NCBI GenBank assembly: GCA_030584085.1
Contig: CP129490.1
Coordinates: forward strand, 62,001-126,000
Origin: Melioribacteraceae bacterium
Lineage (GTDB): Bacteria > Bacteroidota > Ignavibacteria > Ignavibacteriales > Melioribacteraceae
DNA length: 64,000 nucleotides
Reading direction: 5' to 3'
The notes below the pieces were generated by a model. It worked only from the letters and a program-made list of their open reading frames with translations. It was not told the origin of the DNA and did no database searches. A program made the position numbers and the translations under genes. Positions 51,913 through 62,050 of this stretch are shown in pieces; within the stretch, counting starts at the first letter, position 1; the number at the start of each line of letters is the position of its first letter.

Positions 51913-53640
51913 TTAGAGGATGTTATAATCCATGCAGCGTCTTTTTGCGGTGTGGTTTGAACAGCCTAATTCATCACCAAGCTTTTTAAAGTTAATTGTA
52001 CCATTATTCTTTCTACATTTTTCGTTGATAATTTTTAATAGTTTATCTTTTGTAAGTCCGTGTTTCTGCAAGTAATTTTTCTTTTTCAGTTTCTTAATTA
52101 GATTATTCGCAGCTTCATGCTCGGTAATATTTCTTTCTCTCTCTTCTCGAGTTGTATCCTTAACCGTGTTATGAATCTTTATTGGATTTGCAGTTTTCTG
52201 ATATGCCCTGGGACGAATTATCAGTGTGAAAAATGAGTTGGGTTTTGCCGGTGCCAACGGTTTGTCGTACTTGATCTGCATTTGATTAATTGCGTGCTCA
52301 ATATCGGTCGAGTGATTTTGACATAGTTGATAAATTTTCTTTACTCTTTCTTCATCGTTTTTACCGTTTATATAAGGAATTATATCTGCCAGCTCAGGAC
52401 CATATTTTAAGAAAAAGCCGTCGAGGGTAAAACCTCTAAAGTTTTGAGCCATGCGTATAAATTCCAAAAGTGTTTTGAGAACAAGGTCATCGGTTAAGCT
52501 GTCCTTAAGAAAATCGAAATCATAGTTATTCTGATCATCCCATTTGTCTATTTCGGCAGAGAATGAAGCGAATCTTCTATCTACACATTGTGAGCATTTG
52601 CCGCAATGAGGTTTTGAACTTGTATTATCACGCGTACTGCTGCATGAAATAGAGTTAATAAATAGATTTGCACTTTCGTGTTTTTTCAAAATTTTTATAA
52701 CATCGGTTTTTGTTTTATCGAAAAATTTATTTTTTATAACAAAAGGTTCTTCCGCAATTGCTGAGAATAGGCTTCCAAGTAGAGCGAGGGTTTTAGGATG
52801 GGTTGTTCTGCTTGAACGTGCATTCATAAGATCTTGAGTTTCTGCAAAGTTAAGAGAGGTCATGCCGTTTTCGTGAACGTATATTTCCTTTTGACCGTAA
52901 GCTTCCGCCACAACAAAAGCTGTTGATGTATATAGAAATGATCTTGTTCTCTGACTCTCTTCGGCGGAACTTTCATTACTCAAACCGCATTCAAATTTGT
53001 AATGACTTACTCGGCCAGGATAAGTTTGCTGGAGTAAGTTAAAGAGTTTGTTCTGAACACTAATAGTAGTTTTTTGACCGGAACGATGACTAACCAAGCA
53101 AACGTGAGAGTGGTTTGTCTGAAGACTTTCAACCGCACCGGCGAGTGAATCTATACCGCCCGAAAAGAGAAGAACTTTTAATTGATCTTCTTTCTGCATA
53201 TTGAAATTATCGTTATCGAAAATTGATGAAGGAAAATCTTCATCGGACTGATAGAAAGAAAATTCATACTTGCTGTCACCGGTCATAAATTCGAGCGCGT
53301 CGGTTAAAAGTTTTTGAATATCGGGTCGTACCCAAAAAGCATAGTCGATAACTCCGATATGAAACACGATATGACGGCTCCATGAATGATACTCCTGCGC
53401 TGAGGGACTTCCACGTTTTATTTTTCGGTCGGCGGCAAAGAGATAGCCCGCAATGTTAAGTAAATCTTTGTGACGTGGTTTAACGGTTAGTACTGCATCA
53501 ATCAACTTATCAAGTTTTATTCTTGTATTATACTCAGGTAATTCTTTTCTGTGTTCAAGTATGATTTTCTTAGAATCCGGATAGTTTACAGCCGCACCAA
53601 AACCACCGCATGAGACAATATGTTTTTTACTATTGCTCAT
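51913..53640 (-). CDS. QueC-like PP-loop ATPase (QatC-like), candidate defence enzyme
   Basis: The 575-residue protein has an N-terminal extension (about 1-150), then a PP-loop domain with SGGIDS at 160-165, a segment ENGMTSLN...SSRTTHP (257-282) typical of QatC-like proteins, and the QueC zinc set Cys333, Cys346, Cys349, Cys352 (HCGKCSQC). The last 100 residues are basic and end in a possible helix-turn-helix (FKKLGDELGCSNHTAKRR). True QueC is about 230 residues and makes preQ0; this long form fits the QueC-like proteins of Qat and type IV CBASS defence. Its start overlaps the partner gene by four bases. No other queuosine gene is near. Confidence 0.78.
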   Translation of the reverse strand: MSNSKKHIVSCGGFGAAVNYPDSKKIILEHRKELPEYNTRIKLDKLIDAVLTVKPRHKDLLNIAGYLFAADRKIKRGSPSAQEYHSWSRHIVFHIGVIDYAFWVRPDIQKLLTDALEFMTGDSKYEFSFYQSDEDFPSSIFDNDNFNMQKEDQLKVLLFSGGIDSLAGAVESLQTNHSHVCLVSHRSGQKTTISVQNKLFNLLQQTYPGRVSHYKFECGLSNESSAEESQRTRSFLYTSTAFVVAEAYGQKEIYVHENGMTSLNFAETQDLMNARSSRTTHPKTLALLGSLFSAIAEEPFVIKNKFFDKTKTDVIKILKKHESANLFINSISCSSTRDNTSSKPHCGKCSQCVDRRFASFSAEIDKWDDQNNYDFDFLKDSLTDDLVLKTLLEFIRMAQNFRGFTLDGFFLKYGPELADIIPYINGKNDEERVKKIYQLCQNHSTDIEHAINQMQIKYDKPLAPAKPNSFFTLIIRPRAYQKTANPIKIHNTVKDTTREERERNITEHEAANNLIKKLKKKNYLQKHGLTKDKLLKIINEKCRKNNGTINFKKLGDELGCSNHTAKRRCMDYNIL

Positions 53641-54419
53641 TTCAATTCCTCAAACAGAATTTCACTTCTCATTTTCTTGAAGGTATTGCGAATGAGCTTG
53701 TTGATATCTTTACCCGAAGGTTTATTTTCTTTGGAATGTTTGTTGTACCACCCCGCGGCGTAGGACTGAGTGATCTTTGAAGTTTGGTAAGCGTGTTTGG
53801 ATACTTCATCGGTGAAGGTTTCAATTGCTTCGGTAAAATTGTTGATTAGATTTATATCCTTTATGCGCGGTGCTGCTTCGCGTTCAAGAAAATATTTTAG
53901 ATATCTTTCGGTAAACTTAGCGAAAAAGAGCCGTGAGATTTCGGAGAAGCCGCCGCCGCTTGCAGCTTTTGCAAATACGTTTTCGGGTTTAATTTCTGCC
54001 GAAAAGAAATTTTTACCATGATCTATATTTGAATGATACCAATGGTTGAGCGCATCTATTGTTGCCTGCTTTGCAATTGATTGATACTCTTTTGAATGAA
54101 ACGATTCCTGTTTATAATAATTGATAGCTACGGCAAGCGACATAGGGGAAAGATTATCGGTTGGAAGGATTCCGTTTTCTACAAGATACTTACCGGGATT
54201 TTGAGTTTTGAAAGCGTATGAAAACTCCACTAAAAAAGATAATGAAGCTTTAACGGAAGGATCTTTCTCGAGTTCGTTATATAAATTTCTGACATTGGAG
54301 AGGGTGTTTTTAGCGACTTCTTCTACTGGGACTTTACCGCTTGTACAGGCTTCAATAGCCCTGACAATATCCCGCCACTTTTTAGATTTGGGTAGAACTC
54401 CTAATCTTTTATGCCCCAT
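53637..54419 (-). CDS. Met-Gly-starting partner of the QueC-like enzyme, unknown function
   Basis: The 260-residue protein matches no family I can name. It begins MGHKRLGVLPKSKKW, and the Met-Gly start with no signal peptide is notable because QueC-like enzymes in Qat-type systems have been linked to modification of an N-terminal glycine on a partner. The body is helical; KAASGGGFSEISRLFFAKFTER (152-173 region) is a Gly-rich then aromatic stretch. It lies directly before the QueC-like gene with an ATGA overlap, so they form one unit. A functional parallel to QatB is inference, not homology that I can show. Confidence 0.7.
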   Translation of the reverse strand: MGHKRLGVLPKSKKWRDIVRAIEACTSGKVPVEEVAKNTLSNVRNLYNELEKDPSVKASLSFLVEFSYAFKTQNPGKYLVENGILPTDNLSPMSLAVAINYYKQESFHSKEYQSIAKQATIDALNHWYHSNIDHGKNFFSAEIKPENVFAKAASGGGFSEISRLFFAKFTERYLKYFLEREAAPRIKDINLINNFTEAIETFTDEVSKHAYQTSKITQSYAAGWYNKHSKENKPSGKDINKLIRNTFKKMRSEILFEELK

Positions 54420-54724: not shown

Positions 54725-57700
54725 ATGTCAAAATTAGTTAAAGCTCCCCTTGACCAACTAAAAGATTTCCTCAACAAACTTTTTCAATTTGAAAGCCAGG
54801 ACTTAGACTTCGGGGTCTACAAAATTCTGCATTATAAGAGGAAAGAGATAAAGAAATTTATCGATGAACTGCTTGTCGATAAAGTAAAGGAAGAATTAAC
54901 AATTTTGACCGAAGAGGAAGTCAAAAAAGCAAAAAAAGAACTGAAAGAGTTAGAAGAAAATTCGGTTATAAAAGAATGGCTGAAAGCAAAAAAGGAAAAG
55001 GATAAAGAAACTCTCGAATTTTTAGAGAAAAAGTTTGAAAAAGATATTGAACTATATAACGAAACTAAAGCTGCCGCCGAAAGCGCCGATGTATCTATTG
55101 AAACACAAAACCAAATTTACAATCATCTTACTTTGTTCTTTTCACGGTATTACGATAAAGGCGATTTTATAAGCAAACGCCGGTTCGGAAAAAATGAAAA
55201 ATATGTTGTGCCTTATAACGGTGAGGAAACGCATTTCTATTGGGCTAATCACGATCAATACTATATAAAATCATCGGAGCATTTTCAGAAGTATTCGTTT
55301 ACAAGTCCAAAGCCGAGCGACCCCCTTAAAGTACATTTCAAACTTACCGAGGCACAGGTTGAGCAGGGTAACGTTAAAGAGGATGAAAACAAGTATTTCG
55401 TTCTTTCGGAAAAAGAGCCGGAGTTGGAAAATAACGAGCTTTCAATTTTCTTTGAGTACCGTGCTTTAACCGAAGACGAAAAGAAAGAAGTCGGCACACA
55501 GAATAAGCAGGAAAAATTGAACGAATCTGCATCTGTAAAACTGCAGAAAAAGTTAAGTAAAAAACCGGCTGCAGCGTTTTTGTGGGAAAAGAAAGATGAT
55601 GAAACCTACCTGCTCAAAAAGCTGAATCACTACACACGTAAGAACAACTACGATTTTTTCATTCACAAAAACCTCAAAGGTTTTTTGGGGAGAGAACTCG
55701 ACTTTTATATTAAAAGCGAATTGATAAATGTAGACGACCTTTACGTTCAGGAAACAGAAACTCATTTCAGCAGGGTTAAGCATAATTTGAAGTCGATAAA
55801 AGTTTTTAAAAATGTTGCCGATACGATTATAGAATTCCTCGCACAGATTGAAGACTTCCAAAAGAAACTTTGGGAAAAGAAAAAGTTTGTTCTCTCTACC
55901 GAATGGATAATTACAATTGATAAACTTACCGGCTGGCTTGGTGAAAAAGAAGCCGAACCAATATTAAAAGAAGTACTTAAAAACAAAATCCAACTTGAAG
56001 AATGGAAAGAGCTGTTTGGTGAAGAGATTTTTGAGGATTGGAAGAAATTAAAAATTGATAATCTTTACACAATTGCCGAACAGGGGGAACTTGGTAAAGA
56101 CGATAGCGAAGAAAAAGTCTGGAAAAAACTTCCGGTTGACACAGTACATTTTGATGATGACTTTAAGTGGAACTTGCTAAACAAACTCTCCGATAAAATA
56201 GACATTGAAGAAAACTCGGACGGACTCGTTATTCATTCGGATAATTTTTACGGGTTGAAGTTACTCTATGATAAGTACAATTCTAGAATAAAAAGTATCT
56301 ATTTAGACCCACCGTATAATACATCTGCAAGCGAAATTAATTATAAGAATGGATTCAAAGATTCAAGTTGGTGTTCATTAATTGAAAATAGAATTGAAGT
56401 TGGCAAATTATTAGGAGCTGAAGATGGAATGCATTGTATCACCATAGATGATGTCGAACTTAAAAATCTAAAGCAAATTTTAGAAGAGCAGTTTAGTAAA
56501 GATCTTATTCACGCTACTGTTGTAATACGAAATAATCCCTCCGGACGATCAACAGTAACAGGTTTTTCGATTAATCATGAATATGCATTATTTGTCTCCA
56601 ATACTGATAAAGTAAAAGAAGTTGGTAAATTACCTCATACTGAAGAGCAAAAGAAAAGATACACTGAGAGAGATAAAAATGGTAAAATGTTTGAATGGGA
56701 AAACTTAAGAAGAAATGGCCCTGAATCAAACCGAGAGGATCGCCCCAAACAATACTTCCCGATACTTTTAAAGAATGATAACAAAATAGCACTTCCTAAA
56801 ATGGAATGGAATGAAACTAAAGAAATTTGGGAAATTACTACAAAACAAACTGATAAAGAAAAATTGATATATCCATTACATCCAAATGGAAAGGAAAAAG
56901 TTTGGAGATATAGCCATGATAATATTGAAAATGAACCTGATAGATTTAAATGGGAAATAGTGAATGATAGAGTAGAAATTTATCGTAAAAAATATTTAAA
57001 CGAAGAAGGATTACTACCTAGAACTTAGTGGGATAAGCCAGAATATTCAGCGAGAGATAACGGTACGAGAGATTTAGGAAATCAATTTAATAATTCAAAG
57101 ATTTTTGATTTTCCTAAAGCGGTTGGAGCTGTTGTAGATTGTATGAAAGTTGCAAAAACTAAGCAAAATGATATTGTATTGGATTATTTTCCTGGATCTG
57201 GAACTACCTTTATGGCTACCCAGGAACTAAATCGAGAAGATAAAGGTTTTAGAAAAACTATTTTAATTGAACAAGGGGGTTATGTATATGAGCTAATCCT
57301 TCCCCGCATCAAAAAAATAGCATACACATTCGACTGGAAAGAGGGGAAACCGAAAAACGGAAGTATGAACGGATTGGGAGTTTTCCTTAAATACCAAAAA
57401 CTTGAGCAGTACGAGGAATCATTAGAAAACATTTCATTCAACTTAAGTGAAGACGCACAGCAGAAAGCGCTTGAGTTTGAAGAGTACATTCCAAAGTACT
57501 TTTTAGAGTTTGAGACTAAAAACAGCCGTACGCTCGTCAACACCGAAGCGATGGAAAATCCTTGGGATTACAGATTAAAAGTATGGGACGGTTACACATA
57601 CGATACACAAAAAGCCGTTGATTTGGTAGATACGTTTAATTACTTAATCGGTCTGCACGTTCAAAAATACATAACTAAAGATATTGACGGAAAGAGATAT

Positions 57701-57916
57701 CAATTTGTTTACGGCAATAACAATTCAAACAAAAAGATACTTGTAGTTTGGCGCAGCATAAAAGAATGGCAGAAAGAAGATTATGAAAAAGACAGGGAAA
57801 CACTTAAAGAAGAATTAAGAAATTACGAATATGATCTGCTTTATATAAACGGGCAGGCGCATTGGGAAGGTTATCAGCCCGTGGAGCAGGTGTTTAAGAG
57901 TAAGATGGTATCATAA
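54725..57916 (+). pseudogene. Type III-like DNA methyltransferase (Mod) with an in-frame amber codon
   Basis: The frame runs 1063 codons apart from one TAG at 57026-57028 (codon 768). Before it lies a Lys/Glu-rich region of about 500 residues and the catalytic motif DPPYNT (Asp528); after it the S-adenosylmethionine motif DYFPGSGTT (820-828) and a C-terminal domain. DPPY before the glycine-rich motif is the beta-class order of type III Mod proteins. Around the stop the reading is LPRT-stop-WDKPEYSA, where homologues typically continue; TTG to TAG is one change. The stop separates the two catalytic motifs, so ordinary translation gives no active enzyme. The central part is more AT-rich than both ends. 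Confidence 0.85.
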
Positions 57917-61925: not shown

Positions 61926-62050
61926 ATGAGTTTAACTTACAAAGAGAAATAAGTGAATTAGCAAAACAAGTATGTCGTGAATTAAGAAAGAATTCTACTG
62001 AAGCAGAAAATATATAATGGGAGAGACTTAGGGACAGAAAAATGGGTGGT
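61926..62050 (+). pseudogene. Remnant of a second DUF559 gene
   Basis: After the repeat comes CATAAAATA...ATGAGTTTAA as in the intact unit. With one frameshift near 61938 the bases read REISELAKQVCRELRKNSTEAENI-stop-WERLRDRKMG, against RELTEIAKLICCDLRKNSTEAEKILWNKLRNRKLDG in the intact copy. The rest of the gene and any right-hand repeat are gone. It is a clear relic, diverged from its neighbour rather than a recent duplicate. Confidence 0.85.

Follow-up and report, generated by a model that had tools for sequence, protein, structure and literature searches.

The window analysed here, a stretch of 64,000 nucleotides from a Melioribacteraceae bacterium (positions 62001–126000 of contig CP129490.1, which holds the whole 3.74 Mb genome in one contig), contains two overlapping genes, one for a 575-residue enzyme of the QueC family and one for a 260-residue partner protein. 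We found that the enzyme is a full QatC, the QueC-like component of the Qat defence system (QatABCD), extended by an extra C-terminal module, and that partner and enzyme co-occur and co-evolve. We are highly confident that the pair is a diverged stand-alone QatBC. Quite likely it is a natural variant of Qat that lacks QatA and QatD, has effectors fused to the enzyme and probably conjugates a chemical group to the second residue of the partner, a glycine (Gly2). An initial annotation of this DNA had already pictured a two-gene relative of Qat in which the enzyme modifies the exposed glycine; this central idea holds, and the fused effector modules are the main addition to it. Published data on Qat and related systems are cited from two papers, PMC13279940 and PMC13329287.

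Complete QatC fold and active site of the enzyme

The enzyme gene occupies positions 51913..53640 of the window (minus strand). The partner gene lies upstream on the same strand (53637..54419), and the two open reading frames (ORFs) share four nucleotides (53637..53640, minus strand). Both frames, the overlap and the SGGIDS and cysteine motifs described below are exactly where the initial annotation had placed them. Its assignment of the enzyme to the Qat kind of QueC-like proteins was borne out by both profiles and solved structures. The enzyme matched QatC in PADLOC (E 5e-55) and among PDB sequences (9zee_B, E 1e-28), and it scored 206.8 bits against the NCBIfam QatC model, under the cut-off of 280. 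A match to PF06508 (QueC) was also present, with the score against the QueC model (22.6 bits) falling far below the curated cut-off of 150.3. The PADLOC QatC profile matched each of the 27 relatives scanned.

The AlphaFold2 model of the enzyme (mean predicted local distance difference test score, pLDDT, of 81) superimposed on a solved QatC (9y01_B) with Z 31.8 and a root-mean-square deviation (rmsd) of 3.1 over 399 aligned residues, covering model residues 5–474. A second solved QatC (9y02_B) covers residues 5–476, and 394–399 residues are aligned over both structures. The corresponding Z values for QueC and for Cap9, the QueC-family enzyme of the type IV cyclic oligonucleotide-based antiphage signalling system (CBASS), were 14.1 and 13.8. 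By superposition, nothing of the QatC fold is missing from residues 5–476 (52213..53628, minus strand), and the N- and C-terminal extensions peculiar to QatC are present too.

To describe residue conservation we used the family of partner-containing loci, which amounts to 35 rows (31 loci in genome contigs, two in viral contigs, one in a plasmid and the window itself). Five rows were dropped from the enzyme comparison: two run off the contig (L012 and L033), one is frameshifted (L032), one is deleted (L041) and one, itself nearly identical to L014, has a short ORF (L013). Equivalent residues were identified by numbering the alignment of the enzyme with QatC from the PDB against the residues quoted in PMC13279940. 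In all 30 remaining enzymes the equivalents of D71, R76, W87, R89, SGGxDS, R231, R233, ENG, R278, T279, H281, P282, T310, K311 and the four cysteines are invariant. In the window these include the pyrophosphate-binding (PP-loop) motif SGGIDS at residues 160–165 (53146..53163, minus strand) and the zinc cysteines C333, C346, C349 and C352 (C-x12-CGKC-SQC; 52585..52644, minus strand). The site that carries a Tyr/Asp pair in QueC and Cap9 is occupied by two hydroxyl residues, S277 and T279, within the window segment SSRTTHP (residues 276–282; 52795..52815, minus strand). Across the family the first of them is Ser (27/30) or Thr (3/30) and the second is always Thr. All eight comparison QatC sequences have Thr at both positions; seven are encoded on plasmids next to QatA and QatD, and in the eighth (L045) neither is annotated. 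In Pseudomonas aeruginosa QatC the equivalent T278 and T280 occupy the Tyr/Asp positions of QueC and Cap9 and are essential (PMC13279940).

Partner protein: conserved Met-Gly start and QatB-like predicted fold

The partner begins with residues MGHKRLGVLPKSKKW (residues 1–15; 54375..54419, minus strand), which open with MGHKRLG and include the proposed acceptor, Gly2. The initial annotation had expected an invariant Met-Gly start, and this is nearly so: Gly2 is present in 33 of the 34 readable N-termini (that of L017 is cut), and the same 33 have Gly-His directly after the start codon, which is ATG in 30 partners, TTG in three and GTG in one. The search itself cannot have produced this conservation, since the patterns used for retrieval were internal to the partner. 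In the alignment of 31 partners (without L013, L017, L034 and L041) M1, G2, H3, R5, L9 and W15 are invariant, and the N-terminus follows a new signature, MGHxRxGxLPKTxxW. Residues 1–15, although predicted to be disordered, form the most conserved of eight segments (mean top-residue fraction 0.75 compared with 0.53 overall), followed by residues 151–185 (0.72). The sole exception to Gly2 is L041 on a viral contig, with MRHERLG, and here the enzyme is mostly deleted, leaving a C-terminal remnant downstream (read by eye). Joint loss of Gly2 and the enzyme is what a requirement for modification or docking predicts, in this one case.

Pfam, PADLOC, NCBIfam and PDB sequence searches with the partner returned nothing meaningful. 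A few weak matches, among them one to PADLOC 'JAB' (E 0.0006, in a single member out of 31), were taken as chance. The predicted structure (from 30 sequences, mean pLDDT 76) is entirely helical, with 11 helices and with residues 1–15 below pLDDT 50. A structure-based comparison with QatB had been suggested by the initial annotation, and in VIA-align the QatB of the QatBC complex (9y01_A) came first, with Z 11.4, rmsd 4.0 and 11% identity. The superposition aligned 192 of 215 residues, model residues 11–258 falling on QatB residues 72–287, and the next unrelated chain reached Z 6.4. VIA-align re-aligns the match list of Foldseek itself, and only the VIA step separates QatB from other chains. 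The fold alone would be insufficient; homology with QatB becomes likely because the protein is also paired with a QatC and the order of the two genes is the same. Judging by the model, the partner is probably a QatB that has diverged and lacks the long tail, and probably not a new kind of substrate as the initial annotation had implied.

Published QatB proteins have ten helices, an MGTS start and a disordered tail of 30–90 residues (PMC13279940), and all six comparison QatB sequences begin with MGTS. The window partner has neither this start nor a long disordered tail, its low-confidence N-terminal tail spanning about 15 residues with almost nothing beyond them. The candidate substrate segment thus shrinks to some 15 residues in these natural two-gene versions.

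Recurrence and co-evolution of the pair

Relatives of the partner were found in 31 loci in genome contigs, two in viral contigs and one among 72,556 plasmid records; none was detected in 50,697 phage records. Twenty-nine of the 31 genome-contig records are titled as metagenome-assembled genomes (MAGs), and L013 and L014 are near-duplicates. The hosts span Ignavibacteriota, Bacteroidota, Chloroflexota, Planctomycetota, Verrucomicrobiota, Bipolaricaulota, Omnitrophota, Rhodothermota, Krumholzibacteriota, Actinomycetota and Bacillota, together with one proteobacterial bin, one KSB1 bin and Leptospira.

A QatC-type gene adjoins the partner in 34 of 35 loci, counting the contig-end L012 and L033 and the frameshifted L032, and 25 of 35 rows show an overlap of precisely 4 nt (start codons chosen by script). 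In a sample of 395 genomes of the phylum, a full-length partner was present in five, and exactly the same five had a strong enzyme match (at least 313.8 bits). Weaker enzyme matches, 13 in as many genomes, scored 55–112 bits and correspond to frames of canonical QatC size; one genome carries both a strong and a weaker match. Pairwise identities of partners and enzyme cores are correlated with r 0.92 (28 pairs), the maximum of 2000 permutations being 0.45. As the pair recurs in unrelated genomes, often with the 4-nt overlap, and the divergences of its two proteins track each other, it is not a chance arrangement.

Four further genomes have short, decayed relics of the partner: L057, L058 and L059 (genomes G172, G348 and G082, of one genus) and L060 (G144). 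What is left is mostly the N-terminal part. The same helicase gene is found next to three of the relics, and the fourth adjoins the apparent end of a restriction or helicase gene. The relics suggest repeated loss of the system.

Absence of QatA and QatD around the pairs

Local QatA, QatB and QatD profiles were trained on six to seven Qat plasmid loci. None of the three produced a match in 38 sequences around pairs (37 pair loci and the window; three of the 38 are second copies of a locus), with flanks of up to about 9 kb that are in several cases shortened by contig ends. Within these flanks, the absence of QatA and QatD noted in the initial annotation extends to the family. When applied to 13 loci with QatC of canonical size that were not used in training and hold about 1.5 kb per side, the same profiles detected QatA in 11, QatB in 12 and QatD in 11. 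Conversely, the partner profile had no match in these 13 loci. Since the Qat profiles fail at the pairs and match canonical loci, while the partner profile does the opposite, the pair is a separate arrangement and not a truncated QatABCD. Of the findings that the initial annotation named as counter-evidence (partners without the N-terminal Gly, no recurrent pairing, or the enzyme in a complete queuosine or known Qat locus elsewhere), only a single loss of Gly2 was encountered, in the decayed locus L041.

Among the 13 canonical-size loci only L067 (genome G231) lacks any QatA, QatB or QatD profile match, and it may represent another arrangement. In a Halolamina plasmid (L045:3674-4514) two small ORFs, of 153 residues starting with MGTA and then of 136 residues, precede the QatC-like gene; no QatA or QatD is annotated within 10 kb, the three Qat profiles had no match, and the small ORFs are possibly a split QatB. 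In a Rhodobacteraceae plasmid (L044:4522-5778) a QatC-like gene with a cut N-terminus lies beside IS3 elements, with no partner seen; by eye its sequence resembles the L038/L039 branch.

Candidate effector modules fused to the enzyme

The initial annotation was right about the QueC-like core but overlooked what follows it. All 30 family enzymes extend 82–226 residues past the QatC core, compared with 0–9 residues in the eight comparison QatC sequences. A DpnII/MboI-type nuclease domain (PF18742) forms the C-terminus in 18 of the 30: it was found in 16 of the 27 enzymes scanned whole, and L023 and L034 were added from isolated domains. All 18 C-terminal domains picked by eye match PF18742 (best E 1e-13), and their alignment shows conserved E31, P-D-H 65–67 and E77-x-K79, which we take to be the PD-(D/E)XK pattern. 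This nuclease, joined to QatC in most relatives, directly hints at what might serve as the effector of a QatBC-type complex. Four enzymes (L026, L030, L038 and L039) have other C-terminal modules. That of L030 has no Pfam match and is similar to PDC-M36A (E 7e-12); judged by eye, it is possibly a second PD-(D/E)XK type and thus a possible nuclease.

The remaining eight rows, including the window, have a shorter module. In the window it spans residues ~477–575 (51916..52212, minus strand) and consists, according to the model and the end of the core, of a linker followed by short helices. Family and PDB searches with three proteins of this clade gave no significant match. The best weak helix-turn-helix (HTH) matches (E 0.02–0.06) were seen with the window protein only, and from these and the helices we would guess an HTH-like module. 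In the enzyme-core tree (L034 left out) the comparison QatC sequences are on one side (support 96/90), and the eight short-module rows make up a single clade (100/100) placed among nuclease-bearing rows. Most likely this Ignavibacteriota lineage has lost its nuclease or exchanged it for another module, which makes the window an atypical member of its own family.

Relation to known systems

With the QatB–QatC core of QatABCD (9y01/9y02, 9zee/9zef and 9vlk/9vll) the pair shares the QatC fold with its catalytic and zinc residues and all motifs tested, an upstream partner gene overlapping the enzyme gene and the nearly invariant Met-Gly; the predicted fold of the partner comes closest to QatB, though without support from sequence. 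It differs from QatABCD in that neither QatA (a KAP NTPase) nor QatD (a TatD nuclease) was found alongside and that the partner lacks the 30–90-residue tail and has MGHxRxGxLPKTxxW in place of MGTS. Unlike QatC of QatABCD, the pair enzymes mostly have Ser for Thr278, always carry an extra module and fall on a separate side of the tree. Type IV CBASS likewise combines a QueC-family ATP-using enzyme, Cap9, with a Met-Gly partner, the cGAS/DncV-like nucleotidyltransferase (CD-NTase). However, the pair enzyme is far larger than Cap9 and lacks the Tyr/Asp pair. Neither Pfam and NCBIfam nor PDB sequence searches linked the partner to a CD-NTase, and its predicted structure is all-helical; these searches did not extend to a separate CD-NTase in the flanks. 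QueC, the 7-cyano-7-deazaguanine synthase, has the PP-loop core and zinc cysteines in common with the window enzyme, but the latter stays far below the QueC cut-off and the host has its own QueC elsewhere. Restriction nucleases of the DpnII/MboI type correspond to the C-terminal domain of the 18 relatives, where they are fused to QatC.

QatB and QatC form a 1:1 complex, and QatBC alone defends against lambda, though not against every phage stopped by the full operon (PMC13279940). The two-gene arrangement therefore has a functional precedent. Defence requires QatB Gly2 (tested by G2D), the QatC PP-loop and the Thr pair, while the reaction of QatC and the way in which QatBC stops phages are stated as open questions (PMC13279940). 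According to Libby et al., about one-third of QatC-cluster genes have qatA or qatD nearby (PMC13329287), which leaves room for families like this pair. The initial annotation knew no named system with these two genes, and we found neither a two-gene version nor a QatC–nuclease fusion in searches of the openly licensed PMC literature (bioRxiv not covered). Should the pairs prove active, QatA and QatD are dispensable in nature as well, a possibility to which the published constructs with two genes point (PMC13279940).

Proposed mechanism and alternatives

We have moderate confidence in the full mechanism proposed here. Removal of the initiator Met would expose Gly2. The partner would then dock on the QatC core, its flexible tail (GHxRxGxLPKTxxW) reaching the ATP site, where ATP may be used to activate a small carboxylate, or for another N-acylation, so that a group (a 7-deazaguanine acid or something else) is conjugated to Gly2. 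The modified complex would represent an armed sensor, and phage infection would switch on the module fused to the C-terminus of QatC. In most relatives this would be the PD-(D/E)XK nuclease; in the Ignavibacteriota clade of the window, the helical, possibly DNA-binding module may have a regulatory role, contact DNA or cooperate with another protein. The steps up to conjugation are modelled on homology with QatB/QatC and Cap9, and the final one on domain architecture only.

Several results weigh against parts of this picture. Plain Foldseek put QatB at rank 18 (E 0.65), an hhalign comparison of the partner with the six comparison QatB sequences gave a non-significant 7% probability over 68 columns, and the partner profile had no match among PDB sequences. 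Helical bundles, as VIA-align itself warns, can reach Z of about 11 without kinship. The PF18742 nuclease was not matched in the window enzyme. QatC-type enzymes, including that of the window, are devoid of the Tyr/Asp pair that reads deazaguanine in QueC and Cap9, and seven of 31 hosts, all of them MAGs of unstated completeness, have neither QueC above the cut-off nor a QueE-like match at E 1e-10. Deazaguanine as the attached group is thus a guess and the weakest link of the proposal.

For the same reasons we consider it unlikely that the pair carries out deazaguanylation of the type IV CBASS kind, in which 7-carboxy-7-deazaguanine made by the host QueE would be joined to Gly2 as by Cap9. The MG start does resemble the MGGS of CBASS CD-NTases (PMC13279940), and the window's host has both QueC and a QueE-like gene. 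Overall, 24 of 31 hosts including the window's have QueC above the cut-off or a QueE-like match with E ≤ 1e-10, a figure without a background rate, and QueC exceeds its cut-off in 15 of the 30 host genomes reached through loci (the L017 host left out). However, the QueE-like matches are below curated cut-offs in all but one host genome, and the Tyr/Asp pair is replaced throughout the family. With nearly all hosts being MAGs, the distribution of QueC and QueE does not discriminate between candidate substrates. The initial annotation had seen no queuosine or preQ0 genes nearby. For the two queuosine genes that we searched for, this is so: the genome's single QueC above the model cut-off lies 2.7 Mb from the pair and the best QueE-like match 2.8 Mb (about 1 Mb each if the contig is circular).

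Eight hosts (G302-G305, G307, G309, G311 and G318, the hosts of L015, L016, L018, L019, L021, L023, L025 and L032) have a QueE-like match (E ~1e-19 or better, sub-cut-off) and no QueC above the cut-off. In such hosts 7-carboxy-7-deazaguanine might be made but not converted by a canonical QueC.

It is also conceivable, if improbable, that the pair is akin to a toxin–antitoxin system, with the C-terminal module of the enzyme as the toxin and the partner as an inhibitor that inserts its tail, Gly2 being kept because the tail plugs the ATP site. A small upstream gene with a 4-nt overlap, tight co-occurrence, the nuclease of 18 enzymes and some mobile-element and defence neighbours would all fit. 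Yet all 30 enzymes keep the equivalents of the ATP-binding and zinc residues unchanged, which would be of no use to a protein that serves as a scaffold only, and in canonical Qat defence depends on the catalytic residues as well as on Gly2 (PMC13279940). Lastly, a 7-deazaguanine enzyme modifying DNA or tRNA within the restriction-modification (R-M) island, which the type III R-M neighbours and the PF06508 match might call to mind, is hardly credible. The closest relatives found are QatC and not QueC, and the QatC of E. coli fails to restore queuosine (PMC13329287). The recurrent partner, with a predicted fold like that of QatB, has no match to a nucleic-acid enzyme, and the neighbours change from genome to genome.

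Returning to the stand-alone QatBC, it is tempting, though somewhat doubtful, to see in these pairs a widespread unnamed two-gene immune class, in which Gly2 conjugation on a QatB-like sensor gates an effector fused to the conjugating enzyme and effectors are swapped between lineages. Those swapped would be the DpnII/MboI nuclease, the possible other nuclease of L030 and the helical or HTH-like modules. If true, nucleases would be triggered in a general, modular way by nucleobase-like tagging of proteins, and such tagging would not be peculiar to CBASS or QatABCD.

Genomic context

The pair of the window is flanked upstream by two divergent type III genes, one for a methyltransferase and one for restriction, in agreement with the R-M setting recognized in the initial annotation. 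The methyltransferase gene (54725-57916, plus strand) is split by one in-frame TAG into ORFs of 767 and 257 residues with co-linear matches to the same profile; either the gene is broken or the stop codon stems from an error in sequencing or assembly.

Gene neighbours of the pair vary between genomes, and in several relatives they include R-M and other defence genes. We searched 77 neighbour proteins from 27 loci, larger near ones picked by hand from 214 candidates in 28 loci, with no background set. Among the matches listed (the best 25 of 323 for PADLOC and the best 25 of 104 for Pfam) are type I and IIG R-M, DrmD, BREX helicase, integrase and Prim-Pol families, with at least five integrase and at least four Prim-Pol matches. 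Downstream of the pair, L010, L014 and L015 share the same succession of genes that resemble, by size, order and the matches just named, an integrase and a primase-polymerase, which suggests that these three pairs are carried by integrative elements.

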